Assembly: GCA_024281075.1 (NCBI GenBank)
Contig: JAMXLK010000080.1
Span: 1 to 34,540 of the forward strand
Length of the DNA stretch: 34,540 nucleotides
From: Vulcanimicrobiia bacterium
Lineage (GTDB): Bacteria; Vulcanimicrobiota; Vulcanimicrobiia; Vulcanimicrobiales; Vulcanimicrobiaceae
Direction: 5' to 3'
The notes under the pieces: model-generated
The model's input: the letters and a program-made list of their open reading frames with translations, nothing else
Told to the model about the DNA's origin: nothing
Database searches by the model: none
Program-made: the position numbers and the translations under genes
Part shown: positions 6,514 to 24,915 of the stretch, in pieces
How the letters are laid out: each line of letters begins with the position of its first letter
How positions within the stretch are numbered: position 1 is the stretch's first letter

Positions 6514-6525
6514 AACTAGCGGGGT

Positions 6526-7734: not shown

Positions 7735-7746
7735 AGGAATACAAGC

Positions 7747-8220
7747 GTGGCATCAGGCCTAGTCGTCGGCATCTTCTCCGGCTCCGATCCAAAGGCGCTG
7801 GAGAGCGCGCTTGCCGCACAGCAGATCGATTTAAGCAAAGTTAAGGTGGTGAGTACCACCGTGGATGACGACGAAGATGAGGGCTCCCAGCTGGAGTTCG
7901 TCGACGTCATCGCCGACATGGAGGACAACTCTCGGGCCGACGACATGACCCGCGGCCTCGGCGTCTGGGACGAGACCGGAACTGGAGTTCCGGGGGTCGG
8001 TGACGGCCGCCAGGCAACGCTCGGTCAGTTCCAGCACCGCGACGATCCCACGCGGCGCTACCTCGCCGGCTACGCCATTCCGTCGGATGAAGTCGATAAC
8101 TTCGGTGACGCGGTCGCCGAGGGCCGCGCGGTCGTACTCTACTCCGAGGCGGGCCCCGACGCGCAAACCGTCGCTGCCGCGTTCAAAGCCGCCGGACTTC
8201 GAAACGTCCGGGCGTACTAA
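7747..8220 (+). CDS. Hypothetical acidic protein of 157 residues
   Basis: I do not recognise a named family. The start is GTG 7747, preceded by AGAGGA eight bases upstream, and the protein opens with a hydrophobic stretch (ASGLVVGIFSG), followed by an acidic run DDDEDEG (about residues 39-45) and a Gly-rich middle (TGTGVPGVGDGRQ). Towards the C terminus, alternating segments such as AVVLYSEAGPDAQTVAAAFKAAGLRNVR look like a small alpha/beta domain, similar in flavour to general-stress (YflT-like) proteins; this is only a resemblance. It is probably soluble. It lies 12 bases after the aminotransferase and its last codons overlap the reading frame of the lipoprotein that follows. Confidence 0.72.
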   Translation: MASGLVVGIFSGSDPKALESALAAQQIDLSKVKVVSTTVDDDEDEGSQLEFVDVIADMEDNSRADDMTRGLGVWDETGTGVPGVGDGRQATLGQFQHRDDPTRRYLAGYAIPSDEVDNFGDAVAEGRAVVLYSEAGPDAQTVAAAFKAAGLRNVRAY

Positions 8221-8497
8221 GAAAGCGCGCAGAGCCGCACTGCTCGCCGGCGCATGTATTGCGTTGGCAGGATGCGGACCGACGCAAGCCTACAGCTATA
8301 CGCATCTCCCATCAGGTTATCACTGGCGTGCCGTGTACGATCGAACGACCAATGCCGTCGTCTTTTACGGACAGGACCCGCTCACGCTCGAAACGGTCTA
8401 CGTGGGTCCGGATAACAAATTCTTCATCTACCGGCATTCCGGTCCCATCGGCCCCAAAGATCTGACGATGCCCTGGGATCCGCACGATGCGCGATAA
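8174..8497 (+). CDS. Small lipoprotein lacking an ATG/GTG/TTG start near its signal peptide
   Basis: The reading frame shows a clear lipoprotein signal: basic RTKKARR, hydrophobic AALLAGACIALAG, then the lipobox Cys (LAGC), followed by a roughly 70-residue domain rich in aromatic residues (GYHWRAVYDRTTNAVVFYG, then NKFFIYRHSG). The stop at 8497 overlaps the next gene by 11 bases. No ATG, GTG or TTG lies close upstream of the signal peptide. The coordinate given uses the nearest CTG (8174); the nearest ordinary in-frame start is a GTG near 8105, giving an implausibly long N-terminal tail. A non-standard start, a frameshift from the upstream gene (stop 8220), or a base missing from the assembly could each explain this. 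The protein is convincing; its start is not. Confidence 0.55.
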   Translation: MPRSKPPDFETSGRTKKARRAALLAGACIALAGCGPTQAYSYTHLPSGYHWRAVYDRTTNAVVFYGQDPLTLETVYVGPDNKFFIYRHSGPIGPKDLTMPWDPHDAR

Positions 8498-9527
8498 CCG
8501 CGTGCGTCGCGTCATGATCACCGCCGCAGGGACGGTGACCGCGCAATCGCTCATCAAAGCGTTGCGCGACGACGGACGAGCCGAGTTCATCGCGGCCGGC
8601 GACATGAATCCGCTCTGCGCGACGCGGGCGTTCGTCGACGAATTCGTTCTGCTTCCGCAGGCCGGCGCGCCGGACTTTGCATCCCGATGTTTAGAGGCCG
8701 CGCGACGCATGCGGATCGATCTGATCGTTCCGCTGATCGTCGAAAGCGAGTTTCTCCCGCTCGACGACGCGCGAGAACGCTTTGAATCGATTGGCTGCCG
8801 GCTGCTCGTGCCGCCGCGCGACATCGTGGAGCGTGCCGGCGATAAGCTCGAGTTCGCGACGTACTTGCACGAAATCGGCATTCCGGGTCCGGTCACCGTC
8901 GCATACCGCGCGGATGCGGCCGTCGAACGATTTCCGGTCTACCTCAAGCCGCGCCGCGGCTCGGGTTCCGTGGGAACGACGCGAATCGAAAGTCTGCATT
9001 CGCTCCACGAAGCGGCGCGTGGGCGCAGCGACCTCATCGTGCAAGACGCCGTCGACGGCACGGAGTTTACGGTGGATTGTTTTGCTGCAGCGCCGGGGCG
9101 CGTCGTCGCGGCGGTTCCGCGAGAGCGGATTGCCATCAAGGCCGGCGTCTCGGTAAAAGGCCGCACGTACCGGCATCAGGCCATCGAGGGGATCGTCCGG
9201 CGCGTCGTCGAGAAAATCGGGCTGCAAGGCCCGGCGAACGTTCAAGGCATGTTGCGCGACGACGGCACTTTCTCGATTATCGAGATGAATCCGCGTTTCT
9301 CCGGTACGCTCGCGCTCACGACCGCGGCCGGCATCAACTTTGCATCGCTGCTCATCGATATGATTGAAGGTAATCCGATACCGGATCTGCTGGACCGCCA
9401 TGAAGACGGCCTAACGATGATGCGTTACTGGAGCGAGGTCTTTGAAAACGGTGCGGGCGAGATGCGGCTAGGCACCGCGCTTGAACCGGCGCGCCGCCAC
9501 GATGCCGGCTTGGCGCCAAAACTCTAA
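8487..9527 (+). CDS. ATP-grasp domain carboxylate-amine ligase-like protein
   Basis: The 346-residue protein has an N-terminal Rossmann-like preATP-grasp part (VMITAAGTVTAQSLIKAL), a central ATP-binding loop (KPRRGSGSVGTT, 154-165), the IVQDAVDGTEFTVD strand (184-197) and the metal/ATP site EMNPR (Glu266, Asn268, Arg270) followed by FSGTLALTTAAG. Such enzymes form an acyl-phosphate and join it to an amine or carbon nucleophile; relatives include CarB-like and PylC-like proteins found in polysaccharide and natural-product loci. The substrate is unknown. The ATG at 8487 lies inside the end of the lipoprotein gene. Its last 60 bases overlap the end of a convergent glycosyltransferase gene (9468-9527), an unusual tail-to-tail overlap. 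Confidence 0.85.
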   Translation: MRDNRVRRVMITAAGTVTAQSLIKALRDDGRAEFIAAGDMNPLCATRAFVDEFVLLPQAGAPDFASRCLEAARRMRIDLIVPLIVESEFLPLDDARERFESIGCRLLVPPRDIVERAGDKLEFATYLHEIGIPGPVTVAYRADAAVERFPVYLKPRRGSGSVGTTRIESLHSLHEAARGRSDLIVQDAVDGTEFTVDCFAAAPGRVVAAVPRERIAIKAGVSVKGRTYRHQAIEGIVRRVVEKIGLQGPANVQGMLRDDGTFSIIEMNPRFSGTLALTTAAGINFASLLIDMIEGNPIPDLLDRHEDGLTMMRYWSEVFENGAGEMRLGTALEPARRHDAGLAPKL

Positions 9528-10460
9528 GCCGAACGCCGCGCTCACGAAGGGATGATAGAGCCATTCTAAGCGCCGGTCGCGCACAAAGCCGCCGAGAGCG
9601 GCGGCTGCCGGCAAAACGAAGCTGACCGAGTAAAACGGCCACACGTAGGCTCGCAGCCGCCGCGTTCGTGCGATCGATCGCAAGCGTCCCCACACCGGTA
9701 TTTGGGAATCGGTCAAGCGCGCGCGAAAGCGCGGCCCGAATTTGCGCAGCGCATCCCCGATATCGCGCACGGTATGGTGTTCGAGCGCCGCGCTCTCGAC
9801 GTAAGCGATCTCCGCACCTCGTGCGAGCAGCATCTGGACGGGAGCCACGTCGTCTTCTTCCGTGCCTGCGGGCTTGCGATAGGGCAAGCGCATCGTAAAG
9901 CCTTGCGCCAGCGCGACGAGCGGAGCCGGACCTGCGGCAAAATCGTAGACGGCGTAGTCGGCGGTCCGCCGCTTCATGCGATACGTGCGGTGGTACGACG
10001 CCGGCGAGGTCGCCCCGCCGTAAAGAAAGTGATTGAATGGATCGCTGAACGCATTAAAGTAGCGCGTGGTCCCGCCGTCCTGCGCCGTGCTGACCAGCCG
10101 CGGAAAGGCACCGACGATCGCAGGATCGCGAAACGGCGTGGCCATCTTCTCAAGAAAGGTTTTGCCCGAGAACGCGTTATCCGCGGCGAGCCACATCGCG
10201 ACGTCGCCCGTCGCCTTTTCTAAAAGCATTCCCGCGCCCGGCTCGGCGCGTCGCACCGGATTGTGGAAGACGCGCGCCCCAAAAGCCTGTGCGATGGCGA
10301 CGGTCTGGTCGGTCGATCCGCCATCGGCTACGAGCAGCTCGACGGCATCCTTCGGGTAACGTTGCGCTGCGATCGAATCCAGTATGGCCGGCAGGCGTGC
10401 CGCTTCGTTGAAGACCGGCAGCATCAACGAGAAGCGCAGCGGCCGAGAGGCAGTACTCAC
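9468..10460 (-). CDS. Glycosyltransferase family 2
   Basis: The 330-residue GT-A enzyme opens with FSLMLPVFNEAARLPAILDSIA, has the VADGGSTD nucleotide-binding segment (residues 44-51) and an AADN at about 92-95 where the metal-binding DxD is expected, then GTEEDDVAPVQML. A hydrophobic stretch near the C terminus (AYVWPFYSVSFVLPAAAALGG) suggests membrane attachment. It would transfer a sugar from a nucleotide donor during surface glycan assembly. Start is GTG 10460, a GTGA overlap with the upstream oxidoreductase. It is the last gene of the 11-gene minus-strand operon. Its 3' end overlaps the convergent ATP-grasp gene by 60 bases. The altered DxD (AADN) is worth noting. Confidence 0.88.
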   Translation of the reverse strand: MSTASRPLRFSLMLPVFNEAARLPAILDSIAAQRYPKDAVELLVADGGSTDQTVAIAQAFGARVFHNPVRRAEPGAGMLLEKATGDVAMWLAADNAFSGKTFLEKMATPFRDPAIVGAFPRLVSTAQDGGTTRYFNAFSDPFNHFLYGGATSPASYHRTYRMKRRTADYAVYDFAAGPAPLVALAQGFTMRLPYRKPAGTEEDDVAPVQMLLARGAEIAYVESAALEHHTVRDIGDALRKFGPRFRARLTDSQIPVWGRLRSIARTRRLRAYVWPFYSVSFVLPAAAALGGFVRDRRLEWLYHPFVSAAFGLEFWRQAGIVAARRFKRGA

Positions 10461-11473
10461 ACGTCGACCTTCGAGCCCTGGCGTTGCGCAGAGCGCAGCG
10501 CCGCTTCGATCACGCGCACGACACCGGCGCCGAACTCACCGTCCGAACGCGTCGGCGTACCGGCACGGATGGCGCGCGCAAAGTCGGCGACCAGCTTGAC
10601 GAGCGCCTCGCGATTATCGACGAGCGGAACGTGCAAGTCGCCCAAGCGATACGAGACCATCTGTTGCTGCAGCGTCGAGCTCGTTGGATCGAGGATCACC
10701 CCTTTGTCGTAGATGTAAATTTTTTCCGTCGGCTCGACGTCGTCCCAGACGGCCATCTTGAGGCTGCCGGAGACCATCGTTCGCCGCACTTTGACCGGCG
10801 ATAGCCAGCTCAAGTGAACGTGCGCGAGGCAGCCGCTCGGATACCACATGGTAAGAAACGCGACGTCGGGCACTGAGGCGTGGACGCACGTACCAAGATG
10901 CAGGGCTACGGAGCGGGGAACCTCGTCAAGCACGTAGTTGGCCATCGAGATGTCGTGCGGCGCCAGATCCCAAACAACGTTGCTCTCTTGAAAGAGCCCA
11001 AGGTTTACACGCGTCGAATCGATGTAGTAAATCTTTCCGAGCTCGCCGCTTGCGCGAAGTTCCTGCAGCTTCTCGACCGCGCCGGTATACAGAAACGTAT
11101 GATCCGCCATTAAGCGCACGCCGGCGCGCCGCGCCCGCTCGCAGAGGTCCTCGGCGTCGCGGGACGACTCCGCGAGCGGCTTCTCGACCAAAACGTGTTT
11201 TCCGGCATCGATCGCGCGAACCGCAAGCGCGTAATGCGTGCGCGGTGGCGTCGCAAGTGCGACGGCATCTACTGCCGGATCGGCCAGCGCCGCATCGATC
11301 GAAGTGCTGCCGGCGATTGCGGGATAGAGCCGTACCACGCGCTCGAGCCGCGCGGTGTCCTGGTCAACGATGTAACGAACCGACCACTGGTCGGAGGCGT
11401 AAAAGTTGCGCACCAGATTGGGACCCCAATAGCCCAGGCCTACGACTGCTACGCCGAGCGGCTTGCCTTCCAT
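10457..11473 (-). CDS. Gfo/Idh/MocA family sugar oxidoreductase
   Basis: The 338-residue NAD(P)-dependent enzyme has the Rossmann motif GLGYWG (12-17), the EKP motif at 97-99 with catalytic Lys98, and WDLAPHDISMANY (168-180) with the usual active-site His173. Such enzymes oxidise a nucleotide sugar at carbon 3 to give the ketone that a DegT aminotransferase then aminates (as in WbpB/WbpE or WlbA/WlbC pairs). That is the likely role here because the DegT gene lies 29 bases upstream. The open frame extends upstream to 12082 but that part is antisense to the aminotransferase; ATG 11473 is the sensible start. It is coupled to the next gene by a GTGA overlap. Confidence 0.9.
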   Translation of the reverse strand: MEGKPLGVAVVGLGYWGPNLVRNFYASDQWSVRYIVDQDTARLERVVRLYPAIAGSTSIDAALADPAVDAVALATPPRTHYALAVRAIDAGKHVLVEKPLAESSRDAEDLCERARRAGVRLMADHTFLYTGAVEKLQELRASGELGKIYYIDSTRVNLGLFQESNVVWDLAPHDISMANYVLDEVPRSVALHLGTCVHASVPDVAFLTMWYPSGCLAHVHLSWLSPVKVRRTMVSGSLKMAVWDDVEPTEKIYIYDKGVILDPTSSTLQQQMVSYRLGDLHVPLVDNREALVKLVADFARAIRAGTPTRSDGEFGAGVVRVIEAALRSAQRQGSKVDV

Positions 11474-11502
11474 TGCTTCGTCTCGAGACGGTGAAGAAGT
11501 CG

Positions 11503-12618
11503 CTACGCCACGACGAGGGCTTGCGCGCTCGCCAGCGCGCCCGTCACGAGATCGATTTGCTCCTCCGTGAGCTCGGGAAACATCGGCAACGACAGCACGC
11601 GTTCCGCGCTGCGCTCGGTCTGCGGAAACGCTCCGCGCGTCAATCCGAGCTCGGCGTACGCAGCTTGCAAGTGAATCGGAATCGGATAATGTATTCCGGT
11701 TTGGATTCCGCGGTCGCGCAACGCCGAGGCGACGCGATCGCGATGCTCGATCTCTATTACGTATAAATGATAGACGTGGCTTTCGTCGCTTCGGCGCACC
11801 GGCGTTGCAATTCCCAGGTCGCTCAAACGCGCGTCGTACGCCGCGGCGTGACGCCGCCGGGCGGCATTCCAATCGTCTAAGTGAGTCAGCTTGACGTCGA
11901 GCACCGCGGCCTGGATCGAATCGAGCCGGCAGTTTGTGCCTTTTACGAGATGTTCGTACTTCTTGCGCTGCCCGAAGTCGCGCATCAGCCGCAGACGATC
12001 GGCGATCGCCGCGTCGTCGGTAACGATCGCGCCGCCGTCCCCGTATGCGCCAAGGTTCTTCGCCGGATAAAAACTGTAGCATCCGGCGTGCCCGAACGTT
12101 CCCGCGCAGCGTCCGTTGTGCCGGGCACCGTGCGCCTGCGCGGCATCTTCAATGACGACGAGATCGTGGCGCCGCGCAAACTCGAGGATCGGCTCCATCG
12201 GCATGGCTTGTCCGTACAGATGGACGGGCAGGATCGCTTTCGTTGCCGGCGTCAGCGCGGCATCGAGTAAGTTGGGATCCATAAAATACGTGCTATCGAC
12301 GTCGACCAACACCGGGCGTGCGCCGACCGTCGAAACCGCGACTGCCGACGCGATGTAGGTCGTGGCTGGAATGATGACCTCGTCGCCCGGCCCGATTCCG
12401 AATGCCTCGAGGGCGAACTGCAAAGCCGCCGTTCCGGATTCGACGCCGACGCAGTGGCGCGACCCAAGGTACGATGCAAAATTCTCTTCGAAGCGCGCGA
12501 CGTCGGGGCCGAGGATAAATGTCGCATCCTCCATCACTTGCGTCACGCGCGGCAGGATCTCCGAACGCAAGGAACGGTACTGCGTCTTTAAGTCGACGAA
12601 TGGAACGAGTGTGGTCAT
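11503..12618 (-). CDS. DegT/DnrJ/EryC1/StrS family nucleotide-sugar aminotransferase
   Basis: The 371-residue PLP enzyme begins VPFVDLKTQYRSLRSEI, has GVESGTAALQFAL (58-70), IEDAAQAHGA with Asp158 facing the PLP ring, and the Schiff-base Lys187 in SFYPAKNLGAYGDGGAI. The family aminates a 3- or 4-keto nucleotide sugar with glutamate as donor. With the neighbouring Gfo/Idh oxidoreductase a 3-amino sugar is most likely; the exact sugar cannot be told. Start ATG 12618 overlaps the stop of the upstream membrane protein as ATGA. The longer open frame to 13347 is antisense to that upstream gene and was trimmed. No matching acetyltransferase is present in the window. Confidence 0.94.
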   Translation of the reverse strand: MTTLVPFVDLKTQYRSLRSEILPRVTQVMEDATFILGPDVARFEENFASYLGSRHCVGVESGTAALQFALEAFGIGPGDEVIIPATTYIASAVAVSTVGARPVLVDVDSTYFMDPNLLDAALTPATKAILPVHLYGQAMPMEPILEFARRHDLVVIEDAAQAHGARHNGRCAGTFGHAGCYSFYPAKNLGAYGDGGAIVTDDAAIADRLRLMRDFGQRKKYEHLVKGTNCRLDSIQAAVLDVKLTHLDDWNAARRRHAAAYDARLSDLGIATPVRRSDESHVYHLYVIEIEHRDRVASALRDRGIQTGIHYPIPIHLQAAYAELGLTRGAFPQTERSAERVLSLPMFPELTEEQIDLVTGALASAQALVVA

Positions 12619-14882
12619 GGCCGCACGCGCTTCGTCGGCCGATTCGCAAGCGCCTTCAGTAGGGCGAGAACGAAAACGAGTCCGACAATTTCCGCAAGCA
12701 GCTGCGCGACCGCGGTAACCTGCACCAGCACCACGCGCCCCGACGACGTAAGAAGCCAGCCGTTTACCGACATATCGACGCGCACGTGCCGCGGCGCCGT
12801 TCCGGCGGCAAACGCAGCCCACGCCGAATCGTATCGTTCGTTGAACCGCAGCAATCCCGCAGCGCCTGCATCGACGAGGTACAACCACGGCGTAACGTAC
12901 CGAAACGGCAGGGCGCGGGGCGCCGGCGGACTTCGCGGTGCCGGGACATTCGGAGCACTGTTCGCTTGTGCGACCAACTCGCACAGTCCCGCGCAACGCA
13001 CCGCTTCGATCTGCGGCGGTACGTAGGTCCAGGCGAACGAACCGGAACGCTTCGCAAGCGTACTTCCATCCGCAGCGAGCAGTGCTCCACGCACGTATGC
13101 GAGCAGCCACGAGTTCGGCTCGACGCGCCAGAGTACCGGCGACTGCGTCAACGTTCCGCCGAGCGCTTGCGCGAGCGCGGGAACTTCGGAGAAGGTCAGG
13201 CGAGCATCGATCCACGCGGTGCGGGCGTCGATGGAGTCGCTCGGCGGCGTAATGGCGCGGATCGTTCCGTATCCCGGCATATCGCCGAAGAACACGTCGC
13301 AAGCTCCCAGCGGCGCTCCGACGTCGACGATACGCACCGCGGCGCACTGCGACAGCAGCGGCGTTACGCCGCTTACGTGATGCGCGGCCTCAAGGGGCGC
13401 GCGTGCGGTGGGCGGTGCGAGCGATGCCCCGGCGAGGCCGATTCCTACTTGCGACTTCGAGACCAGCCAGGGACGCGGTATCACCTCCGTTACTCCGAGG
13501 ACTCGCAACGCCGCGTCGTCGCCCGATTGTTCGTAACGCGCGAGCGCCATGTCGACGGGATACGTCGGAAAGTATTCGTTGAGCGCCGGCACGACGTGCG
13601 GGTACACGAAGGCATTGGGATCCGCTCCGTCGCCGGCTCCGGTTCGCAAGCCCAACGGTTGAAACGCCGGAAGCAGCGCGATGCGTGCGAACGGGCGCGC
13701 CGTAACGACGGGGTGCTGATACGATCGCGCGCCGGTCCAGAAATCGCTCGGAGGATGCAGCGCCCACGCAATCGGGAGCGTCACGCCGGCGGCCAGGGCC
13801 GCGTAGCCGAGCGCGCGGATGCGCGCGGCGGCCGCGCATGCCAGCAGCGCGAGCAGCGCGGCGATGATGCCCGCACCATCGTACAGCTCGCGATAGACGC
13901 CGCTTTCGGGAATATTGCGAACGACCCACGCGTACGGAACCGCGAGAGGACCGTGCACGCCGAGGATTGCGACGTAGAAGACGACGGCCGCCGCGAAGAC
14001 GATCGAAGCTGCGATGCGGCGATGCGCCGCAATCGCACCGATGAAGGCAAGCGCGAGCACGATCCAAACGGCAATCGAGCCCGCGATACCGAGCCGGTCC
14101 GCGTAACCGGCGAAGTATCCGCCGAGCCCCAGCAATGGAGCCGGCGCGACCGATTGGTTCGTTTGCCATTCTACTTCGTATGGTATGTTCAGCAAAGAGC
14201 CGCGCTCCGCGATCAAGCCGACGACCGACGGCATTGCAACGATGGCGCCGGCAATCGGCGGGAGCCACTTTCGCGTCGCAATTGCAAAGGCGACGAGCGC
14301 GGCCATTGCCAAAATGAAGAATTGGAGCTGCGCCGCAACGAGCACGATCCACAGCGCAAGCCGCACCGGCGACGCGTCGCGGCCGCGCAGCATCTCGGTG
14401 AAGAGTCCTAGCAGTCCGGCATATGCGAGCACCATAACGAGATGGCCGGCGACGACCTGATTGTAGACCCAGGGATTGAAGAGCGCGAATAAACCGATAC
14501 CGAGCGCCGCGGGCCATGCGGCGCCCCACTCCCAAGCCGCGCGCTCTGCGGCTCGCATGCACGCGTATCCAATTACCGCTGCAAAGAACGCCAGCGCCGC
14601 GAGGGGACCGGCAATCCACATGACGGCGACGAGCGGAATTGCGATCAGATAGGTCGTCGGATGCGGATTAGCGGTTCCGAGCGAGTCGGAGAGCCAGCCG
14701 TTAAAAGAGGTACTCGCGAACCACGGTATTGCGCGCCCGTCGATCGGCCACGTCCAATCGTGACGCAGCGTCGGAACTCCCTTAGCAGCAACGAAGCCCG
14801 CGAAAAGCAACGCGGCTAGGAGTGCGAACCATCGTCCAGCGGGAGTTCTTGCGGAGCCGGCTAGGACCGCAATCGCCGGCAC
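12615..14882 (-). CDS. Large GT-C/YfhO-like membrane glycosyltransferase candidate (755 residues)
   Basis: About ten hydrophobic segments fill residues 17-375. A long, probably extracytoplasmic region follows (380-710) and one C-terminal membrane span (720-742). This layout, and a C-terminal module reading FNERYDSAWAAFAAG then H-V then VNGWLL, matches the layout and end of the 1303-residue AftD-like protein in the same operon (FNEAYHPEWSATLNG, H-V, ANGWIVP). I infer a GT-C transferase using a polyprenyl-phosphate sugar on the outer face of the inner membrane; the catalytic acid is not pinned down. GTG 14882 overlaps the previous gene by 22 bases and lacks a well-spaced ribosome-binding site, so the start is uncertain. 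The end overlaps the DegT gene (ATGA). Confidence 0.7.
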   Translation of the reverse strand: MPAIAVLAGSARTPAGRWFALLAALLFAGFVAAKGVPTLRHDWTWPIDGRAIPWFASTSFNGWLSDSLGTANPHPTTYLIAIPLVAVMWIAGPLAALAFFAAVIGYACMRAAERAAWEWGAAWPAALGIGLFALFNPWVYNQVVAGHLVMVLAYAGLLGLFTEMLRGRDASPVRLALWIVLVAAQLQFFILAMAALVAFAIATRKWLPPIAGAIVAMPSVVGLIAERGSLLNIPYEVEWQTNQSVAPAPLLGLGGYFAGYADRLGIAGSIAVWIVLALAFIGAIAAHRRIAASIVFAAAVVFYVAILGVHGPLAVPYAWVVRNIPESGVYRELYDGAGIIAALLALLACAAAARIRALGYAALAAGVTLPIAWALHPPSDFWTGARSYQHPVVTARPFARIALLPAFQPLGLRTGAGDGADPNAFVYPHVVPALNEYFPTYPVDMALARYEQSGDDAALRVLGVTEVIPRPWLVSKSQVGIGLAGASLAPPTARAPLEAAHHVSGVTPLLSQCAAVRIVDVGAPLGACDVFFGDMPGYGTIRAITPPSDSIDARTAWIDARLTFSEVPALAQALGGTLTQSPVLWRVEPNSWLLAYVRGALLAADGSTLAKRSGSFAWTYVPPQIEAVRCAGLCELVAQANSAPNVPAPRSPPAPRALPFRYVTPWLYLVDAGAAGLLRFNERYDSAWAAFAAGTAPRHVRVDMSVNGWLLTSSGRVVLVQVTAVAQLLAEIVGLVFVLALLKALANRPTKRVRP

Positions 14883-15664
14883 TCCATTGCAACGCCGAAT
14901 GCAGCGGCGAGTGCGGCGGCATACGCCGCGATCGCAAACGGCTCACGGTACGGCTCCGGAAGAAAGCTCGTTGGAACGATCGCCGCAATGGCGACGATCG
15001 CGGCGTAACTGGCGGTGCGCTCGAAGACGAACCCGCGCGCCAGCCGATCGAGCACGGCAATCGTGCGGACATAGGTTTTTTGCACGAAGATGCCGGCTTT
15101 TGTCGGCGTCAATAAGGATGCCGCAATCAGAAGCGTTGCAGCCACGGCGACCTGAAACGCGAAAGTCACGAAGACGTCGCCGGCATACCCGCCCAGCAGC
15201 GCGCCGATCGCCAACGCGCAAACTGCAATCAGCACGGCATACCGCGAGGCCGCCACGATGAGGCCGCCGCGCGTTAGCGACGCATTGAACGCGGACATCG
15301 CTCCGCAGCGCACGAGCACTGCGACGACGACCAGCACGGCGCAAACGATCAGAACGAACGTCTCCGCGCCCGGCTGCGAAACCAGACCGGCAATCACGCT
15401 CACGAAGAGCACGACGACGAGTGCGCTGGTCAAGAACGCCGGAAAAGCGGGGGCGACCGCGGCTTCGTCAGGAGCGGTGTTTGGCAGAAAACGGCCGATC
15501 GCCAAGGCGACCGCCGCGAAGATCGCGGCGATGTAGGCCGCCGTAGCGAAGCGTTCGGCCGCGCTTCCGGAAAGCGTCGTGGAAAGAATCAGCGCAACGA
15601 CGCACGTCCCGATTGCAAAGCGCAGGGCGCGTCCGACCGCCCATGCGAACGTCGCGCGGTTCAA
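14861..15664 (-). CDS. Polytopic membrane protein of unknown function (267 residues)
   Basis: I do not recognise the family. Roughly seven hydrophobic segments are visible (about 12-31, 40-60, 78-95, 100-119, 135-158, 163-184, 218-260) joined by short basic loops, with almost no soluble domain. The start chosen is TTG 15664, which forms a TTGA overlap with the AftD-like stop, the same coupling seen at other junctions in this operon; the longer frame to 15820 is antisense to that gene. It sits between two GT-C-like genes, so a role as a partner or transporter for lipid-linked sugars is reasonable inference. It ends with TAG at 14861, 22 bases inside the next gene. Confidence 0.7.
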   Translation of the reverse strand: MNRATFAWAVGRALRFAIGTCVVALILSTTLSGSAAERFATAAYIAAIFAAVALAIGRFLPNTAPDEAAVAPAFPAFLTSALVVVLFVSVIAGLVSQPGAETFVLIVCAVLVVVAVLVRCGAMSAFNASLTRGGLIVAASRYAVLIAVCALAIGALLGGYAGDVFVTFAFQVAVAATLLIAASLLTPTKAGIFVQKTYVRTIAVLDRLARGFVFERTASYAAIVAIAAIVPTSFLPEPYREPFAIAAYAAALAAAFGVAMECRRLRS

Positions 15665-18600: not shown

Positions 18601-19572
18601 GGCGTATGCCGCGGCCCACGGAAAGTACGCTCGGCCGGCAAACGAAACGAACGTCGCCCAATGTCCCAAACCGCGCAGCACGTTGGCAAACGAGGTCGCG
18701 GCATTATGCATCGAAGGTGCTTCACTCAGTACGCCGTTGAGCCAAACGCCTCGAAAGTAGTCGACGAACGGAACGAGCCAGTAAAGATTGATGGCGATCG
18801 TTGCGACGAAGGCTGCTGCAATCAACGGCACGGTGCGGTTGATCGCCGCCGTCGGCTTGGGATCGAACGCTATCGTGACGATCAGGAAGATCGCGAGCAC
18901 GATAACGTTGATTGCAACCAGCGGCGGATTGATGCCGCCGCCGACGAGCACCAGTAACGCGATCGCAAGTGCCGCGCGCCACAGATTCATCTCTCCGCGC
19001 ATCGCACGCGCCATAACGCCGATCATTGCCGGCAGCGTGCCGTACGTCAGAAGCCATACGATCTGAGCCTGCGAGTTCAGCGCGACGTACATATTGAAGA
19101 GATACGCGATCGAGCCGGCGATGCGCGAAATCTCGTCCAACCACGGCGCGACGCCGCGCAGGCAATAGTACATCGACCACAAGCAGCCGAAATAAACCAA
19201 GAAAACCGCCGCGTGCTGCGCGAGATCCTGCGGCACGTGCAAGACTTGCGCGAGTCCGTATGCCCACGAGTACGGCGTCTGGTACGGCACCCAAAAGCCC
19301 GTGTGCGTACCCATGGCGAGCGCCGGATTCCAAGCGTGCAGCAGTTTGCCGAGGAACGCAAGCGGATTGATGTGCAGCCCCGCTTGGCCGTCGTTAAGCT
19401 GAACGCCGCTGCCGTAGCCCGCAGTTACCAGCAGAGCAAGTGCGGCAAAGAGCGCCGGAACGAGCGCTTTTTGCAACGCCGCCGGAAGCGGACGATCCAA
19501 AGCCATTGCGCGTAACGCGGCCGTCATCGGCCGCGCGGCCGGCCCGCTACCCTCGGCGGTCTGCTCTTTCAC
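15661..19572 (-). CDS. AftD-like (alpha-arabinofuranosyltransferase/DUF3367-type) GT-C glycosyltransferase, 1303 residues
   Basis: This is the largest gene in the window. The N-terminal 450 residues hold about eleven membrane spans, starting near 36. After the first span comes LNDGQAGLHINPLAFLGKLLHAWNP (59-83), which parallels the short acid-containing loop and 'NPxxFL...LHxWxP' of mycobacterial AftD; Asp61 is the candidate catalytic acid. Then come GFWVPYQTPYSWAYGL and SWMYYCLR-like segments. About 750 residues of beta-rich extracytoplasmic sequence follow, probably carbohydrate-binding sandwiches, then a last span at about 1272-1290. AftD itself is of similar size (about 1400). Arabinose as the sugar is not proven. 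Start is GTG 19572, GTGA-coupled to GT9; the end is TTGA-coupled to the next gene. Confidence 0.78.
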   Translation of the reverse strand: MKEQTAEGSGPAARPMTAALRAMALDRPLPAALQKALVPALFAALALLVTAGYGSGVQLNDGQAGLHINPLAFLGKLLHAWNPALAMGTHTGFWVPYQTPYSWAYGLAQVLHVPQDLAQHAAVFLVYFGCLWSMYYCLRGVAPWLDEISRIAGSIAYLFNMYVALNSQAQIVWLLTYGTLPAMIGVMARAMRGEMNLWRAALAIALLVLVGGGINPPLVAINVIVLAIFLIVTIAFDPKPTAAINRTVPLIAAAFVATIAINLYWLVPFVDYFRGVWLNGVLSEAPSMHNAATSFANVLRGLGHWATFVSFAGRAYFPWAAAYAQGLFGALLWFVPIVALGGIAFRRNQRPVTLFFLLVTIVSVPIVVGYYHDELGDAVTTPLYDQFYRNFPGFQMFRFSYKWVAGVEFGISGLYALGAFAMVAALREHIGRLATFERRNWAWLVSGLRTVIIALPILIFVPVLVSKMNYPGQPIPSWEYRESALIGSNESQRVALFPTQFLEQFDWGNPQFYIEDSLVSRPLIMGLLGSEPSQGTDMWVRRAYRATREGLDFSADMFRAMGVDTILERDDFIPAIDFSSPGEWRFNSTTLTHDLLKRVVGAAPSRVDGPLRTYRLDHALPLFYGVTHPVISTLPTFSDAYLGDVNAMAKGRAEFDPPTRSADEFSTAMQSLAPILPGSADQIRDLAVNEALAHGIRVSPPSADAAWLTRFNVKSGGAYAIFALDQSMLFDRPAPQTLEIDGKYLPVQTTGGAWTQYGNIGLTPGVHWVSDGYLDPDLVVAIVSAEDLRAWQDRITALVRALPQNLATANLVYARKAAINIPASGTYRVAATAVGPFGPDGVVRTRLVKGSASRSVPAGLGATLPYIFENGVAATSALMMPPEWYREDPRVYSWQRGDPMSWFLFAQHSHVRVFVPGQNAVRANVTMRLSRLQVSDLLTVSDDGGSPVNVTLPGRAASDQQYDTVDRLDGPPPVAVAFPISLRPGWNDVAFDFHVAPGERFDLGPDVISAAVAPDLTFTRNGSAGAAGPITRDSAFAAVRLANSPAALTGDPEIVGTLSNTGSVGASIAVALEDRGSVIYRTFPISRDGSFDINFLHAFPNGWSDDSLRVLGIWFFSRGVNPKLTDLYYNLHALPGENLRRPQALASLRYKIDGRLVGSAPLYLTSGRHVVTSADKQVKIGLLTTEPLTLPRTRDFPVLWQRHSTTSVGVTVKSSASPFLLVFNEAYHPEWSATLNGDVLPHVIVNGVANGWIVPSLPDGGEIALSFSGQQFYVISAAISVIALLIMITLAWAPDLWPVAPDR

Positions 19573-20645
19573 GCGTAAGCCTTTCCGTAGAGGCGGTATG
19601 GACCTTCCAAGACGACTTGCTGCTCGACGGCCTCGCGCTCAAAAAGTTCGTCGACCTTCTCGCGCACGGGATCGTACTCGATATCGCGCGCGATGCACCG
19701 GTAACCGATATTGCGAACGCACTCAAAGCCGCGCAAGCCTTCATCGTGGCAGGGCGGACAGAGCGACGGGCGGTACGCAACCGCGGGTCCAACGGGAGCA
19801 CCTCGAATCTCGCTGGTCATGCCGTACAACGCGAGCGTCTTGACGCCGAGGCCCGACGCAAGATGGCTGAACCCTGCGTCGTTACCGACGAAGACTTCGC
19901 ACTCCGCCAAAAGCCGCGCCGCCTCAACGAGCGGCTCGCGAACGATGCTGATTCTTGCGTGGTCACGAAAATCTTGCTCCGCGCGCTCCGCTTCGCGCTG
20001 CTCGTGCGGTCCGAGGAAAAAACGGACGCTGCGGCCGCGCGCCGCTTGTGCGAGCGCCAGCGCCGCAAAATGCTCGTACGGCCAACGCTTCACTTCGTTC
20101 CCTTTCCAAGCCATCGACCCCGGGTGAATCCCGAGCATTCCGGGAATGCGCGCGGCGTGCCACGACTCGGGGATCCAATATCGAAGCTCGTTCGGGTCGG
20201 GCGGCAGGCCCAATGCGCGAGCGAGCCGGAGGTTCTCGCTCAGGCGCTGGCCGCCGCGAAGCGCAACGCGCGCATTGCGCGTGGTCATTGCGATTGCGCT
20301 TGCTGCGCCGCCGTACTCGTGCATCCAAAGCTTGCGCGCTCCCACGCCACGAGCGATAAGCGCATACTGCCAACGCGTCGCCGGAAATGGCAGAATTGAG
20401 GCGTCGTAGCGACGCGGACGCAGTCCGCGGATGCAGGCAAGCGCGTCGAGAGCGGTGGGACGCAGCGGCAGCTGCGTGATGTCGCGCACGATTCCCAGCG
20501 CCTCCAGATAGGCGCTCACGGGTGGATGCATCGTCACGGCATCCAGCGTCCAGCCGTCGTTGTGCAAGCCGCGTAAGAGCGGACTCGCAGTCAGGGCATC
20601 GCCGAGCCCTGGTAGCAGCAGCACCAGCGCGGTTTGGGACCCCAC
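19569..20645 (-). CDS. Glycosyltransferase family 9 (heptosyltransferase-like)
   Basis: The 358-residue GT-B enzyme shows the GT9 pattern: LVLLLPGLGDALTASPLLRGL at the N terminus, GIHPGSMAWKGNEVKRWPYE in the middle, VGNDAGFSHLASGLGVKTLALYG with the conserved nucleotide-sugar-binding Asp, and a Cys-containing CPPCHDEGLRGFECV segment also seen in ADP-heptose:LPS transferases. It probably adds a heptose or related sugar to a lipid-linked glycan or LPS core at the inner face. No heptose-synthesis gene is in the window. GTG 20645 lies six bases after the preceding stop, and the gene ends in a GTGA overlap with the AftD-like gene. Confidence 0.88.
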   Translation of the reverse strand: MGSQTALVLLLPGLGDALTASPLLRGLHNDGWTLDAVTMHPPVSAYLEALGIVRDITQLPLRPTALDALACIRGLRPRRYDASILPFPATRWQYALIARGVGARKLWMHEYGGAASAIAMTTRNARVALRGGQRLSENLRLARALGLPPDPNELRYWIPESWHAARIPGMLGIHPGSMAWKGNEVKRWPYEHFAALALAQAARGRSVRFFLGPHEQREAERAEQDFRDHARISIVREPLVEAARLLAECEVFVGNDAGFSHLASGLGVKTLALYGMTSEIRGAPVGPAVAYRPSLCPPCHDEGLRGFECVRNIGYRCIARDIEYDPVREKVDELFEREAVEQQVVLEGPYRLYGKAYA

Positions 20646-20651
20646 GATGAT

Positions 20652-21449
20652 TTACTCTCCGATAACGACTGGAACGACGATCTCGTGCGAGCCTGCTGCG
20701 CGGTCGTGACCGACGGCGAAGCGCTCCGGACGATCGTAATAGTGCAAGATTCGCATACGATAAAAAATGGCCAGCGTATCGAGGAAGACGTTCCAGACGG
20801 CGCGTAGGCGCAAGCGGCTGCAAACGCGCGTAAAGTTGACCGTTACCGGCGCCTCGGCGATGCGGTAGCCGAAGTGATGGACGTTCGCCAGCAGTTCCAG
20901 ATCGAAAGCGAATCGCTTGACCAGAACTCGCGGCAGCACGTGCTCGAGTACCGGACGCTTGAAGAGTTTGATGCCGGTCTGCGTATCGCGCACCGGTAAG
21001 CCGAAAAGCGATCGCACGAGCATGTAGTAGAAGAAACTGTAGACTCTTCGTAGGGGCGGATAATCGACTTTGGAGCGGGGATGGAATTTCGACCCGATCA
21101 CGGCGTCGGCATTGCGCGCGTCCATAATCGTAAAAAAGTCGGCGAGCTGTTCGGGATGCAAATCCATGTCGGCATCGAGAAACGCGACGTGATCGCCTCT
21201 CGAATAGAGCGCTCCGCAGATTAACGCGTTGCCTTTGCCTTCGTTACGCGTGCAGCGCACCACGCGAACCCGGTCGGGCCAAGCCCGGAGCGCTTGACTC
21301 GCTGCGGTATGCGTTCCGTCCATGCTGCCGTCGTCGATCACGATAATCTCGAAATCGATTCCGAGAGCGCGCATAGTCTCCACGGTTTCGCACACGTTTT
21401 CAGCGATTGACTGCGCCTCGTTATACGCCGGCATCAGGATCGAAAGCAT
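20652..21449 (-). CDS. Polyprenyl-phosphate sugar synthase-like GT2 (DPM1/ALG5 type)
   Basis: The 265-residue GT-A protein begins MLSILMPAYNEAQSIAENV, has VIDDGSMDGT (37-46), NEGKGNALICGALYSRGD (69-86) and the metal-binding DAD in FLDADMDL (90-97), then DTQTGIKLFKR. The pattern matches dolichyl-phosphate mannose/glucose synthases, which move a sugar from a nucleotide to a polyprenyl phosphate. No C-terminal membrane spans are seen, as in the soluble DPM1 subtype. Its product would be the donor needed by the two GT-C-like proteins downstream in the same operon, which is a good functional fit. It starts 67 bases after the flippase gene and ends six bases before GT9. Confidence 0.88.
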   Translation of the reverse strand: MLSILMPAYNEAQSIAENVCETVETMRALGIDFEIIVIDDGSMDGTHTAASQALRAWPDRVRVVRCTRNEGKGNALICGALYSRGDHVAFLDADMDLHPEQLADFFTIMDARNADAVIGSKFHPRSKVDYPPLRRVYSFFYYMLVRSLFGLPVRDTQTGIKLFKRPVLEHVLPRVLVKRFAFDLELLANVHHFGYRIAEAPVTVNFTRVCSRLRLRAVWNVFLDTLAIFYRMRILHYYDRPERFAVGHDRAAGSHEIVVPVVIGE

Positions 21450-21516
21450 GGCGAAGGTAGGTTTGCTCCTCGGAAAAGGCTAGCCTGCAGTATTGACGCC
21501 GAATGCAGCCGAGAGG

Positions 21517-23061
21517 CTACGCGATCGGCGCTTCCCGGTTTTCGGGCGGGCTGACGAGATTCCGCTCGAATTTGGCGACGATCGTGCGCCATGCGAGATC
21601 GAGTTCCTCGACTCCAAGCATGCGCGCGACCGCCACGAATACCGTTCCGCCGATGGCGATTTGGCCGAAAAGGAACCAGGCACGCGACGCGAGCGACGCT
21701 TCCGGCGTCACCCCGAGGGCGCCAATCCACCCTAACGCAGCCAGCATCGCGAGCGAGCTCAGGACGACTTTTCCGGTCGAAATCACCAAGACGCCCCAGT
21801 CAACCCCGGTGACCAGACGCGCAATGACGAGCAGCAAGAGTATCGCTTGCATGCTTTGACTCAGCGAGTTAGCAAGCAAGAGCCCGCGCGCCCCTAGGCT
21901 CGGAAGCCAAATCATCGAGAGCAGCACGTTGACGACCACCGTGACGACGGAGATCGTAACCGGCCAAAGCGTTTCGCGGCACGCGAAGCAGCAACGCGTC
22001 AAAACCACGTTTGCGGCAAGCGCGATTAATCCGATTGCGGCGTATGGCAGCAGCGACGCGGTCAAATCGGTCGCGCCGGCCTGAAACGTACCGCGTTCGA
22101 AGAGCGCTTGGATCATCGGATGCGCGAGCACGATGAGCGCACAGACCGACGGGATCGTAATGAAGTTGACGAGACGCAGTCCGGTGACGACGCTGCGTGC
22201 GACGCCTCGGCGATTCTCGCGCGCAAACTGCGCGGCGAGTAGGGGAAAGATGACCGTCGCAATCGCGGCGGCGAATATTTGCTGCGGAAAGTTCACGAGC
22301 TTCGTCGCGTAATTCATTCCGGCGATGTAACCCGGTGCGAGCGTTGAGGCAAAAAAACGATCGAAAAACAACGCGAGCTGGCCGGCAGCAGAGCCGACGA
22401 TGATCGGACCGAGCAAAACCCAGATCTTTTGCAGGCCCGGATGCCGAAGATCGATGATGGGACGGTACCGGCCGATGGAAAGGAACGACGGTACCTGAAC
22501 CAGCAGCTGGGCGGTCAAGCCGAGCGCCGTTCCCAGCACGAGGGCATAGATCCCCATGTCGTGTGCGAAGATGAGGACGCAAAGGATCGTTACCGTGTTG
22601 ACGGCGACGCCGACCAACGCTGCGGATCGGAAACGATGGTAGGCATTGAGCATCGCCGACAATACGCCGCTCAAGCTCACGGCGACGATGCTCGGCATCA
22701 ACCAGCGCGTCATCCTGATTGCAACGCCCATCTGCGGCGCCGGGAAGCCGTGCGCGATGATCGGCACGTACCAGCGCGCCGTAAAGAAGCCGATGAGCGC
22801 GCAGGTCGTCAGGACGATCGCCAGCATGTTGAGCACCGTGCTCGCAAGCCGCCATGCTTCTTCTTCTTTACGATGCGCGAGATACTCTGAAAACGTCGGA
22901 ACGAGTGCGCTCACCAGAGCGCCGTTGAAGACGCCGAAGAGGATCGTAGGAATCGTCGCCGCCGCTAGAAACGTGTCCATCTCCCAACGGGTCCCGTAAT
23001 AGCGTGCGCTCACGACCTCGCGCAAGAAGCCTAGCAGCGTGGACGCAAAGGTCGCACCCAT
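21517..23061 (-). CDS. MurJ/MviN-family lipid-linked glycan flippase
   Basis: The protein of at least 514 residues has about fourteen membrane spans and the MurJ-type N terminus GFLREVVSARYYGTRWEMDTF, followed by FGVFNGALVSALVPTFSEYL. MurJ flips lipid II; this copy sits right after a phosphoglycosyl transferase gene, so it may instead flip the operon's own glycan. The start is unresolved. ATG 23061 trims about ten residues of the first membrane span. The next ordinary start is a TTG at 23223, deep inside the upstream gene. An ATT at 23145, joined to the upstream TAG stop as ATTAG, would give a normal 542-residue protein. Whether the genome has another murJ cannot be seen here. Confidence 0.85.
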   Translation of the reverse strand: MGATFASTLLGFLREVVSARYYGTRWEMDTFLAAATIPTILFGVFNGALVSALVPTFSEYLAHRKEEEAWRLASTVLNMLAIVLTTCALIGFFTARWYVPIIAHGFPAPQMGVAIRMTRWLMPSIVAVSLSGVLSAMLNAYHRFRSAALVGVAVNTVTILCVLIFAHDMGIYALVLGTALGLTAQLLVQVPSFLSIGRYRPIIDLRHPGLQKIWVLLGPIIVGSAAGQLALFFDRFFASTLAPGYIAGMNYATKLVNFPQQIFAAAIATVIFPLLAAQFARENRRGVARSVVTGLRLVNFITIPSVCALIVLAHPMIQALFERGTFQAGATDLTASLLPYAAIGLIALAANVVLTRCCFACRETLWPVTISVVTVVVNVLLSMIWLPSLGARGLLLANSLSQSMQAILLLLVIARLVTGVDWGVLVISTGKVVLSSLAMLAALGWIGALGVTPEASLASRAWFLFGQIAIGGTVFVAVARMLGVEELDLAWRTIVAKFERNLVSPPENREAPIA

Positions 23062-23140
23062 GATAAAGAACGTGGAGCCGGCAATCGAGATGCGCTGACG
23101 CGGACGAAGCTGCGGAACGACGCGAAGGTGAGGGGGTTGC

Positions 23141-23794
23141 CTAATGTGCTCCGTTCCTCCGTATGACGGCCGGAATCGTCTTCGCGACGATGAGCAAATC
23201 GCCCAGCGGCGTCCATTCGTCAACGTAGCGATTATCCAGTTCCATCCAATGCTCGAACGAGACGCCGCTGCGTCCGTTGATCTGCCAGAGGCACGTTACG
23301 CCCTGTGGAACGCTGAGGCGCCGGCGCGCAAAGACGTCGTAGTGCTCGACCTCGCTCGGCAACGCCGGGCGCGGACCGACCAGCGACATCTCGCCGCGTA
23401 CGACGTTGATGAGGTTCGGCAGCTCGTCAATGCTGGTGCGCCGCAAGAAGCGTCCGAGCGGATGAAGGCGCGGATCGTTGCGGATCTTAAAGACGGGTCC
23501 ATCGACCTCATTGAGGTGCATGACGCTTTGACGCATCGCATGCGCGCCGTTGACCATCGTACGGAGCTTGAACATTTTGAACTTTCGGCCGTGCATGCCG
23601 ACGCGTTCCTGCGTGAAGAACGGCGTACCACCGGTTACGCAGGCGATCGCGAGCGCGGCGAGGCCGACGACGGGCGCGGTCACGATGAGAAGCAGCACCC
23701 CGAGGACGACGTCGGTGCCGCGCTTGAGCGCGTGCCACGAGGCCGGAACTTGACGCCCGGCCGGAATCGCCATCGCGATCCGCACGGCGTTCAT
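23141..23794 (-). CDS. Bacterial sugar transferase (monotopic phosphoglycosyl transferase, WcaJ/PglC-like)
   Basis: The 217-residue protein has a single hydrophobic segment (27-53), then the PGT core: PFFTQERVGMHGRKFKMFKLRTM (58-80), the catalytic Asp123-Glu124 in TSIDELPNLINV, and MSLVGPRPALPSEVEHY (136-152). It moves a sugar phosphate from a nucleotide sugar to undecaprenyl phosphate and so starts the lipid-linked glycan. Length is that of the small core form, without the extra membrane domain of WbaP. It is ATGA-coupled to deoB upstream and runs directly into the MurJ-like gene, which could flip its product after extension. Confidence 0.94.
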   Translation of the reverse strand: MNAVRIAMAIPAGRQVPASWHALKRGTDVVLGVLLLIVTAPVVGLAALAIACVTGGTPFFTQERVGMHGRKFKMFKLRTMVNGAHAMRQSVMHLNEVDGPVFKIRNDPRLHPLGRFLRRTSIDELPNLINVVRGEMSLVGPRPALPSEVEHYDVFARRRLSVPQGVTCLWQINGRSGVSFEHWMELDNRYVDEWTPLGDLLIVAKTIPAVIRRNGAH

Positions 23795-24915
23795 GCCAGC
23801 AGCGCCTCTCTGACGGTTCGCCCCACGAAGTCCAGGCCTTCGACGTCCGGCAGCACGGCGCCGCTTTGCCCGTTGGCGGTCAGATGGACGAACGGCACGT
23901 ATTCCCGGGTGTGATCCGATCCGGGCGCGGTCGGATCGCAGCCGTGATCCGCAGTCAAAATCACCTCGTCGCCGGCACGCAACCGCGCCTCGAGACTCGG
24001 CAACATGGCATCGAGTTCTTCAAGCGCACGCGCATATCCGCGTACGTCGCGCCGATGACCGTACTTCGAATCGAAGTCGTTGAGATTCGTGAAGATGAAA
24101 CCGCGATCGACCGCGTCGAGAAGTTCGAAGGTCTTTTCCATCGCGTCACGGTTGTCGGCCGCGCGAATCGATGACGATATTCCACGTCCGCAGTAGATAT
24201 CCGAAATCTTCCCTACTGCATACACGCCGACATACCCGGTCCGGAGCTCGTCGAGCAGGTTCGGGGGCGGCTCGATTGCATAGTCCCGTCGATTCGGCGT
24301 CCGTCTGAAAGCCCCCGGTTCGCCCACAAACGGGCGGGCGATGACCCGGTTGACTGCGTGCGGAGGCTGCAGCATTTCGCGGGCCTCCCGGCACCATTGA
24401 TAGAGCCGGCTCAACGGCACGACTGCTTCGTGCGCCGCGATCTGAAAGACCGAGTCGGCTGACGTATACAGTATGGGCCGCCCCGTGCGGATGTGCGCTG
24501 CACCCAGCTCTTCGATGATCTCGGTGCCCGACGCTGGCACGTTGCCCAGCGGCGGCTTGCCGGCAATTTCCGAAAATGCGGCGACGACCTCGGGGGGAAA
24601 TCCATGCGGATAGGTTGGGAATGCGACCTCCGTGACGATTCCCATCATCTCCCAGTGGCCCGTGATTGTATCTTTTCCGCGACTCCGTTCGCGCAGTCGC
24701 GCCAAGCGTGCGCGCGGTGGTTCGGCCGCGCGAAGGCCCGGGATATCGGTGAGCGCCCCAATCCCAAGCCGCTGTAAATTCGGAATATGTAGCGTGCCGA
24801 CGCTGCGAGCTACGTTGCCGATCGTGTTTGCGCCGGGCGCGTCGCCGTAGTCGGACGCATCTGCGAGCGCGCCGATACCGCCCGAATCAATGACGATTGT
24901 GACCACGCGCTTCAT
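23791..24915 (-). CDS. deoB: Phosphopentomutase
   Basis: The 374-residue alkaline-phosphatase-superfamily enzyme interconverts ribose 1-phosphate (or the deoxy form) and the 5-phosphate. Seen are the metal-binding start VVTIVIDSGGIGAL with Asp10, KDTITGHWEMMG (81-92) carrying the threonine nucleophile, NLNDFDSKYGHRRD, and ILTADHGCDPTAPGSDHTREYVPF with the C-terminal Asp/His metal ligands. ATG 24915 is chosen over 24960 because the family starts at this point and the extra 15 residues are unconserved. A perfect 7-bp hairpin lies just upstream. It is the first gene of the long glycan operon and is ATGA-coupled to the sugar transferase, an unexpected place for a nucleoside-salvage enzyme. Confidence 0.93.
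   Translation of the reverse strand: MKRVVTIVIDSGGIGALADASDYGDAPGANTIGNVARSVGTLHIPNLQRLGIGALTDIPGLRAAEPPRARLARLRERSRGKDTITGHWEMMGIVTEVAFPTYPHGFPPEVVAAFSEIAGKPPLGNVPASGTEIIEELGAAHIRTGRPILYTSADSVFQIAAHEAVVPLSRLYQWCREAREMLQPPHAVNRVIARPFVGEPGAFRRTPNRRDYAIEPPPNLLDELRTGYVGVYAVGKISDIYCGRGISSSIRAADNRDAMEKTFELLDAVDRGFIFTNLNDFDSKYGHRRDVRGYARALEELDAMLPSLEARLRAGDEVILTADHGCDPTAPGSDHTREYVPFVHLTANGQSGAVLPDVEGLDFVGRTVREALLA

Follow-up and report, generated by a model that had tools for sequence, protein, structure and literature searches.

The window analysed here is a 34,540-nucleotide stretch of DNA, the whole of contig JAMXLK010000080.1 (C80) of a Vulcanimicrobiia bacterium (assembly GCA_024281075.1), and it carries on its minus strand eleven tightly packed genes that run from deoB to a gene for a family 2 glycosyltransferase (GT2b). 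The host belongs to the Eremiobacterota, a little-known phylum that includes soil bacteria. The eleven genes and their surroundings are best read as a variable surface-glycan locus, in which an anchor found throughout the family, made up of deoB, a phosphoglycosyl transferase (PGT) gene and murJ, is followed by a genus-specific cassette of eight genes; the probability of this reading is put at roughly 0.65. Two divergent genes on the left (orf24973 and orf26856) and a sigma-factor/aminotransferase group on the right are the rest of the fixed family part. Gene content and order, their conservation within the genus and their turnover between genera were observed directly, and because the cassette genes turn over while PGT-murJ stays, the eight genes are best read as a cassette of the genus.

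The source genome is a draft of 164 contigs that is 86.5% complete. It was compared with 17 other genomes of the same genus (18 in total), within sets of 58 genomes of the family and 149 of the phylum, and 14 control genomes were searched alongside; most of the genomes are fragmented, and individual genomes are given by working numbers (G000 for the source). An earlier first-pass annotation, made from the letters of the window alone, had placed these genes in a diderm, and this was borne out: passages of PMC9758169 describe an outer membrane visible in thin section in Vulcanimicrobium, passages of PMC6664022 report lipopolysaccharide (LPS) and BamA genes in WPS-2 genomes, and LpxC was found in 16/18 genus genomes. 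For a diderm phylum with few cultured members, the locus maps at the gene level a possible way of varying surface sugars. It also places AftD-type enzymes in a surface-glycan setting outside the mycobacterial group, and points to a phylum where it can be tested how MurJ and Amj share their work, a matter of dispute. In the open-access literature, no co-mention of Eremiobacterota with arabinofuranosyltransferase or with DUF3367 was found, and a search for Eremiobacterota with glycosyltransferase returned nothing on this locus, as judged by title and the start of the abstract.

Gene order within and beyond the genus

An orthologue of the AftD-like GT-C protein of the cassette was found in 16/17 other genomes of the genus, which is more than chance would give; G003, the sole genus genome with no match, is 68% complete. 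Stretches from these 16 genomes were compared, and in nine of them (G001, G002, G006, G007, G008, G010, G013, G014 and G017) a single contig carries all eleven genes in unchanged order, although in G007 and G008 the contig stops within deoB. The remaining stretches are interrupted where contigs end, and none of them has a contrary order. About 2.7 kb separates GTC2, the second large GT-C-like gene, from the DegT gene in G017, the small membrane protein is 130 aa long in the G015 and G017 loci, and the identity of GT2b goes down to about 50% in several members of the genus. In G009 (L053), murJ and the AftD-like gene are each in two pieces, perhaps assembly errors. In G010, the open frames past the locus on the GT87 side begin like glycolysis and other housekeeping genes, as judged by eye.

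Across the family, the MurJ search was positive in 53/58 genomes, 42 of them outside the genus, and the loci of 39 of these 42 were compared. The PGT gene adjoins murJ in 38/39 loci, deoB lies upstream of murJ in 34/39, and a relative of orf24973 lies divergently on the far side in 31/39; the gene content after murJ, on the other hand, varies from locus to locus, with the eight cassette genes missing, replaced or rearranged. The genomes with the closest murJ (G029 and G111, 82-83%) have a different gene run after it, and in their genus relatives of DegT and Gfo/Idh (57-63%) lie further on and reversed. Single cassette genes do recur at the site in other arrangements: 17/39 stretches have a GT-C gene of either kind, 8/39 have the DPM-like GT2 with an identity of at least 50%, and 9/39 have relatives of both DegT and Gfo/Idh. 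For the small membrane protein, none of the 39 stretches showed a relative. Both ends of the variable part, murJ and the right-hand group, are visible in 11/39 stretches, in which murJ and the first gene of that group lie from 22 bases to 12.4 kb apart (22 in G069, then 225, 472, 1380, 1398, 1629, 1793, 5263, 5418, 11674 and 12446 bases); the distance in the window, from the end of murJ (21517) to orf7747 (8220), is about 13.3 kb.

The first-pass annotation had described the eleven genes as a single operon building one glycan, and had named scattered or unlinked genes in relatives among the observations that would refute it. In genomes beyond the genus this applies to the eight genes that follow murJ. 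The proposal of one eleven-gene unit is therefore not supported: the order is kept within the genus, but beyond it only PGT-murJ and mostly deoB stay together. Beyond the host family, murJ stretches were compared from the sister family f2 (G037 and G038), from f3 (seven genomes) and from f6 (G057). The deoB-PGT-murJ trio is present in both f2 genomes, and in G046 (f3) the order is deoB-PGT-Wzy-murJ. In another f3 genome, G045 (L162), relatives of GT9 (49%), the DPM-like GT2 (54%) and GTC2 (35%) were seen near murJ, and these may reflect transfer of cassette parts between families.

Several observations weigh against reading the region as an anchored glycan locus. In 6/7 f3 genomes and in G057, the murJ stretch holds no relative of the PGT gene or deoB. 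The right edge is unclean, as only the 11 stretches mentioned reach the right-hand group, and G112 and G118 have GT-C, GT2 or Wzx-like relatives past the aminotransferase gene; in the window, too, RmlC, RmlD and a Wzx-like gene sit past it, so that the space from murJ to this group does not enclose all the variable genes. The link between the DPM-like GT2 and GT-C genes over the 39 loci is non-significant (6/8 versus 11/31, Fisher p 0.059). Matches to PF11847, the AftD family, lie on another contig than murJ in G035 and G114, and in G033 and G100 no murJ match was found in the stretch surrounding the AftD-type match. The Wzx-like protein Flip2 scores below the Pfam cut-off, and no GtrA/GtcA match was found among eight members of the small-protein family at E values up to 10, a search in which the HMMER filters drop most weak matches. 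Fold models were unusable for both the small membrane protein (predicted local distance difference test score, pLDDT, 51.2) and GTC2 (pLDDT 40.8).

Loci of the Wzx/Wzy type, which make O-antigen or capsule, have conserved edges and a variable middle. The present locus resembles them in its PGT, Wzx-like, Wzy/WaaL-like and nucleotide-sugar genes and in having stable edges around changing contents; PF02397 and PF04932 are matched over cut-off here, and the Wzx-like PF01943 below it. It differs in that the anchor is deoB-PGT-murJ, in that large GT-C proteins are often encoded in the variable part, and in that the cassette does not include the Wzx-like and Wzy-like genes. It is a familiar kind of locus in a new form, and what most merits work at the bench is the side finding on MurJ and Amj.

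MurJ and Amj as candidate flippases

MurJ and Amj are families of lipid II flippases, and both are present here by curated scores. MurJ is single-copy in 18/18 genus genomes (as the two pieces in G009) and 50-83% identical over the 39 family loci, and SEDS proteins are likewise found in 18/18 genus genomes. These observations, together with a TIGR01695 equivalog score over its cut-off and the occurrence of murJ without a PGT gene in most f3 genomes and in G057, agree with an alternative in which the glycan is made by the PGT, the cassette and the flanking genes only, while deoB and murJ have housekeeping roles and merely share the site, MurJ acting as lipid II flippase. This alternative is a contender, rated somewhat short of even odds; it has to accommodate the very stable adjacency of the PGT gene within the family, as well as altered cavity residues in MurJ, an alternative lipid II route in Amj, and genomes that lack a full-length MurJ.

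Arginine 18 of E. coli MurJ is replaced by T, S, A or M and R52 by F in 48/48 family sequences, the window protein having T and F at these positions. R24 and D39 are kept in the family, and R270 is replaced by K. In the MurJ proteins of f2, f3 and f6, R52 is F in 12/12, and all 11 sequences that extend over R18 have M or T there, so that both arginines are replaced across the 60 phylum sequences aligned, one of which does not reach R18. Eremiobacterota MurJ is thus unlike that of E. coli in lacking R18 and R52 and, in the host family, in its place beside a PGT gene.

Amj (PF10997) was found in 142/149 phylum genomes, and in 85/85 of those with at least 90% completeness and at most 5% contamination. 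All 18 genus genomes carry it (source copy G000:C36:36391-37179), and Bacillus subtilis is the only one of the 14 control genomes to do so. Five of the 58 family genomes, each at least 90% complete, gave no MurJ match, and all five have Amj. Outside the class, four of five genomes are without a full-length MurJ match (G055, G056, G058 and G059; completeness 62, 96, 86 and 75), G056 giving a weak partial one, and all four have Amj; missing murJ or other genes in draft genomes may, however, be assembly gaps. PF03023 was also matched over cut-off in the control archaea Haloferax volcanii and Methanosarcina acetivorans, so the family is not specific to lipid II. The argument that a sole MurJ must be the only lipid II flippase was dropped once Amj had been found in all the genus genomes and across the phylum. 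A single MurJ without R18 and R52, beside a widespread Amj, therefore leaves room for MurJ as a glycan flippase, the role supposed in the first-pass annotation. Published results advise caution, however: passages of PMC4990322 describe an O-antigen flippase able to replace MurJ, and PMC12096821 reports that a B. subtilis murJ-amj double mutant was rescued by more undecaprenyl-pyrophosphate synthase.

A second alternative follows from these data, in which the MurJ-family protein flips the PGT-started glycan and not, or not mainly, lipid II, which is left to Amj, and the eleven genes form one pathway. It draws on the union of PGT and murJ in the family loci and both f2 genomes, on the replaced residues, which are essential in E. 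coli, on the near-universal Amj, also in the family genomes that gave no MurJ match, and on the archaeal matches to PF03023. Nevertheless, it is judged unlikely, since the eight downstream genes are unlinked to PGT-murJ outside the genus, six of the seven f3 genomes and G057 have the same residue changes or Amj yet no adjacent PGT, and the protein passes the equivalog cut-off and keeps R24 and D39, with a lysine at R270. In addition, some of the residues essential in E. coli also differ in other working MurJ proteins according to passages of PMC4790310, the absence of murJ may be due to the assembly gaps noted above, and a separate Wzx-like protein lies within the locus. A broader proposal for the Eremiobacterota, in which Amj flips lipid II and the single MurJ, wedded to the PGT in the family and f2, has become the flippase of a variable glycan decorated by AftD-type GT-C enzymes, is regarded as improbable.

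Glycosyltransferases and sugar genes of the cassette

If the region is a variable surface-glycan locus with a cassette, as preferred here, the PGT would load a sugar phosphate onto undecaprenyl phosphate and so start a glycan linked to a lipid pyrophosphate, which GT9 and GT2b would lengthen in the cytoplasm. A nucleotide sugar may be oxidised by Gfo/Idh and then receive an amino group from DegT, the likely site being C3. The lipid-linked glycan would be turned over by a MOP flippase, with Flip2, MurJ or both as candidates. The DPM-like GT2 is predicted to make a polyprenyl-phosphate sugar that the small repeat protein or another flippase would carry across, and whose sugar the AftD-like GT-C and GTC2 would attach outside; a Wzy/WaaL-type protein would then polymerise or ligate the product.

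The first-pass annotation had named an Actinobacteria-like GT-C and a GT2 of the type that makes polyprenyl-phosphate sugars, and this pair is supported by Pfam score and solved relatives. The AftD-like protein has an N-terminal GT-C core and a C-terminal module with the last transmembrane segment. A profile of eleven relatives matched PDB entries 6w98 and 6wbx, which we take to be mycobacterial AftD, at 4e-7 (whole-sequence E 4.2e-7). Profile positions 1144-1276 align with 6w98 1145-1280, and the N- and C-terminal stretches align to the PDB match in order, the N-terminal one alone being non-significant (6.2 bits). AftD is the arabinofuranosyltransferase of Corynebacteriales, a mycobacterial cell-wall enzyme with decaprenyl-phosphate arabinose as its donor, and the present protein is a distant relative. 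It is like AftD in having the core, the C-terminal module and the last transmembrane segment in the same order; it is unlike it in that Pfam shows no F5/8-type or other further domain. PF11847 was matched in 33/149 phylum genomes (31 over cut-off) and, among the controls, in Corynebacterium glutamicum only. The first part of the earlier description, an AftD-type GT-C beside a polyprenyl-phosphate-sugar-type GT2, stands, but because of this spread the label Actinobacteria-like is too narrow. Sixteen of the positive genomes are outside the genus. The match was placed in all of these but G079 and G054, and in ten it lies no more than 20 kb from murJ; the nearby match of G111 and G112 is below cut-off.

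GTC2 shares the C-terminal module of the AftD-like protein, as judged from sequence comparison: a hidden Markov model of the module detects GTC2 at 1.4e-7, and hhalign of GTC2 against the AftD-like profile gave 88%, although PF11847 is absent from the Pfam matches of nine GTC2 members. Asp61 of the AftD-like protein is near-invariant and aligned in the N-terminal stretch, and Asp42 of GTC2 is invariant in 9/9. In GT-CA enzymes, according to passages of PMC12041299, the first juxtamembrane helix carries an essential aspartate at its tip, and we infer that Asp61 and Asp42 correspond to it. A profile search of GTC2 against the PDB returned 14 phycobiliprotein chains (best E 0.025), which were judged to be chance matches.

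The DPM-like GT2 has as its best solved relatives a dolichol monophosphate mannose synthase (5mlz) and undecaprenyl-phosphate 4-deoxy-4-formamido-L-arabinose transferases; a Kyte-Doolittle scan found no hydrophobic segment in it. The small membrane protein consists of repeated two-helix hairpins. Its relatives are 130 (one unit), 266-284 or 332-343 aa long, the repeat number differing between close relatives. Membership of the GtrA/GtcA family was considered for it and dropped on sequence. Its position between GT-C genes, behind a polyprenyl-phosphate-sugar-type GT2, nonetheless suggests a GtcA-like flippase, and it is speculatively put forward as a putative flippase of the polyprenyl-phosphate sugar. 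Passages of PMC7389260 describe teichoic acid and Gtr systems that follow this logic, with a cytoplasmic GT2, a small flippase and a GT-C. Such three-component glycosylation (CsbB/GtcA/YfhO; GtrB/GtrA/GtrX) is like the present arrangement in its cytoplasmic polyprenyl-phosphate-sugar-type GT2, small membrane protein and outer-face GT-C; it is unlike it in that the locus has two large GT-C proteins, and a small protein with variable repeats and no GtrA match.

The top solved relatives of DegT are 7b0d (named glutamine-scyllo-inositol transaminase), 2oga (named transaminase and presumably DesV), QdtB 3frk, 7n63 (a putative aminotransferase) and WbpE 3nyu; perosamine synthetase and ArnB rank behind them. 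DesV, QdtB and WbpE act at C3. The best NCBIfam match of Gfo/Idh is NF040723, an archaeal UDP-GlcNAc 3-dehydrogenase, at 121 bits and far below the cut-off of 450. Because the DegT relatives and this match point the same way, a 3-amino sugar made by DegT and Gfo/Idh is plausible; the amino-sugar role assigned earlier fits the nearest relatives. The pair might instead serve lipid A, as a GnnA/GnnB-like pair making UDP-GlcNAc3N separately from this glycan. Both the UDP-GlcNAc 3-dehydrogenase match, found in a comparison that did not include GnnA/GnnB sequences, and the LpxC of the genus are consistent with this; the pair sits inside the cassette, however, and its two relatives occur together at the site in only the nine family stretches mentioned, though lipid A should be general, so that this explanation is very unlikely.

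Coordinates, junctions and flanking genes

The coordinates of the locus are given in Table 1. The eleven genes reported in the first-pass annotation are all present, and the protein families named there were mostly right by Pfam and NCBIfam scores.

Table 1. Genes of the locus and its flanks, with positions in the window
Feature	Position	Strand	Match
deoB, phosphopentomutase, first anchor gene	23791..24915	-	TIGR01696 422 bits, cut-off 341; NF003766 over cut-off
PGT, short PF02397-type phosphoglycosyl transferase	23141..23794	-	PF02397 194 bits
MurJ-family flippase, open frame	21517..23223	-	PF03023; TIGR01695 325 bits, cut-off 235.55
GT2, polyprenyl-phosphate-sugar synthase type (DPM-like), first cassette gene	20652..21449	-	PF00535 109 bits
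GT9, heptosyltransferase-like glycosyltransferase	19569..20645	-	PF01075 77 bits
AftD-like GT-C, 1303 aa	15661..19572	-	PF11847 (GT-C_AftD) 48.2 bits, cut-off 26
Small polytopic membrane protein, hairpin repeats	14861..15664	-	no Pfam match
GTC2, second large GT-C-like protein, 755 aa	12615..14882	-	no Pfam match
DegT-type PLP sugar aminotransferase	11503..12618	-	PF01041 400 bits
Gfo/Idh/MocA oxidoreductase	10457..11473	-	PF01408
GT2b, last cassette GT2	9468..10460	-	PF00535 70 bits
Wzx-like flippase (Flip2), outside the eleven genes	2610..3920	-	PF01943 22.0 bits, below cut-off 28.2
Right-hand group: ECF sigma factor, zinc-finger (anti-sigma-like) gene, orf5683, aminotransferase, orf7747	4525..8220	+	
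orf24973 and orf26856, divergent from deoB, left-hand anchor	24973..27779	+	no Pfam match
Wzy/WaaL-type polymerase or ligase, outside the eleven genes	30755..32056	+	PF04932 57.6 bits

Of the ten junctions, with the starts chosen here, five are 4-base overlaps, three are gaps (67, 6 and 29 bases) and one, between the small membrane protein gene and GTC2, is a 22-base overlap. At the PGT/murJ junction, a TTG start at 23223 gives an 83-base overlap and an ATG start at 23061 a 79-base gap. In-frame ATG, GTG or TTG codons lie 67-79 bases past the PGT stop in at least 24/38 family relatives, with up to four candidates each. The five short overlaps counted earlier were confirmed, but the accompanying count of two longer overlaps and a largest gap of 67 bases is uncertain because murJ could start at TTG 23223, at ATG 23061 or between them. 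A promoter and terminator scan of the window gave fewer sites than in shuffled sequences and was uninformative on transcription.

The glycan locus reaches past the eleven genes to the Wzx-like and Wzy/WaaL-like genes, RmlC/D and more glycosyltransferases. A Flip2 relative lies after murJ in 19/39 family stretches, and a Wzy/WaaL-type relative is present in 7/39; in G046, of family f3, such a relative sits between the PGT gene and murJ. An ATP-grasp gene (8487-9527), convergent with GT2b and overlapping its end, is patchy within the genus. Several genera have the ECF sigma factor and zinc-finger genes (4525-5686) on the right-hand side of the variable region, and a gene for a D-lysine 5,6-aminomutase alpha subunit (141-1715) is found further right in several genera as well.

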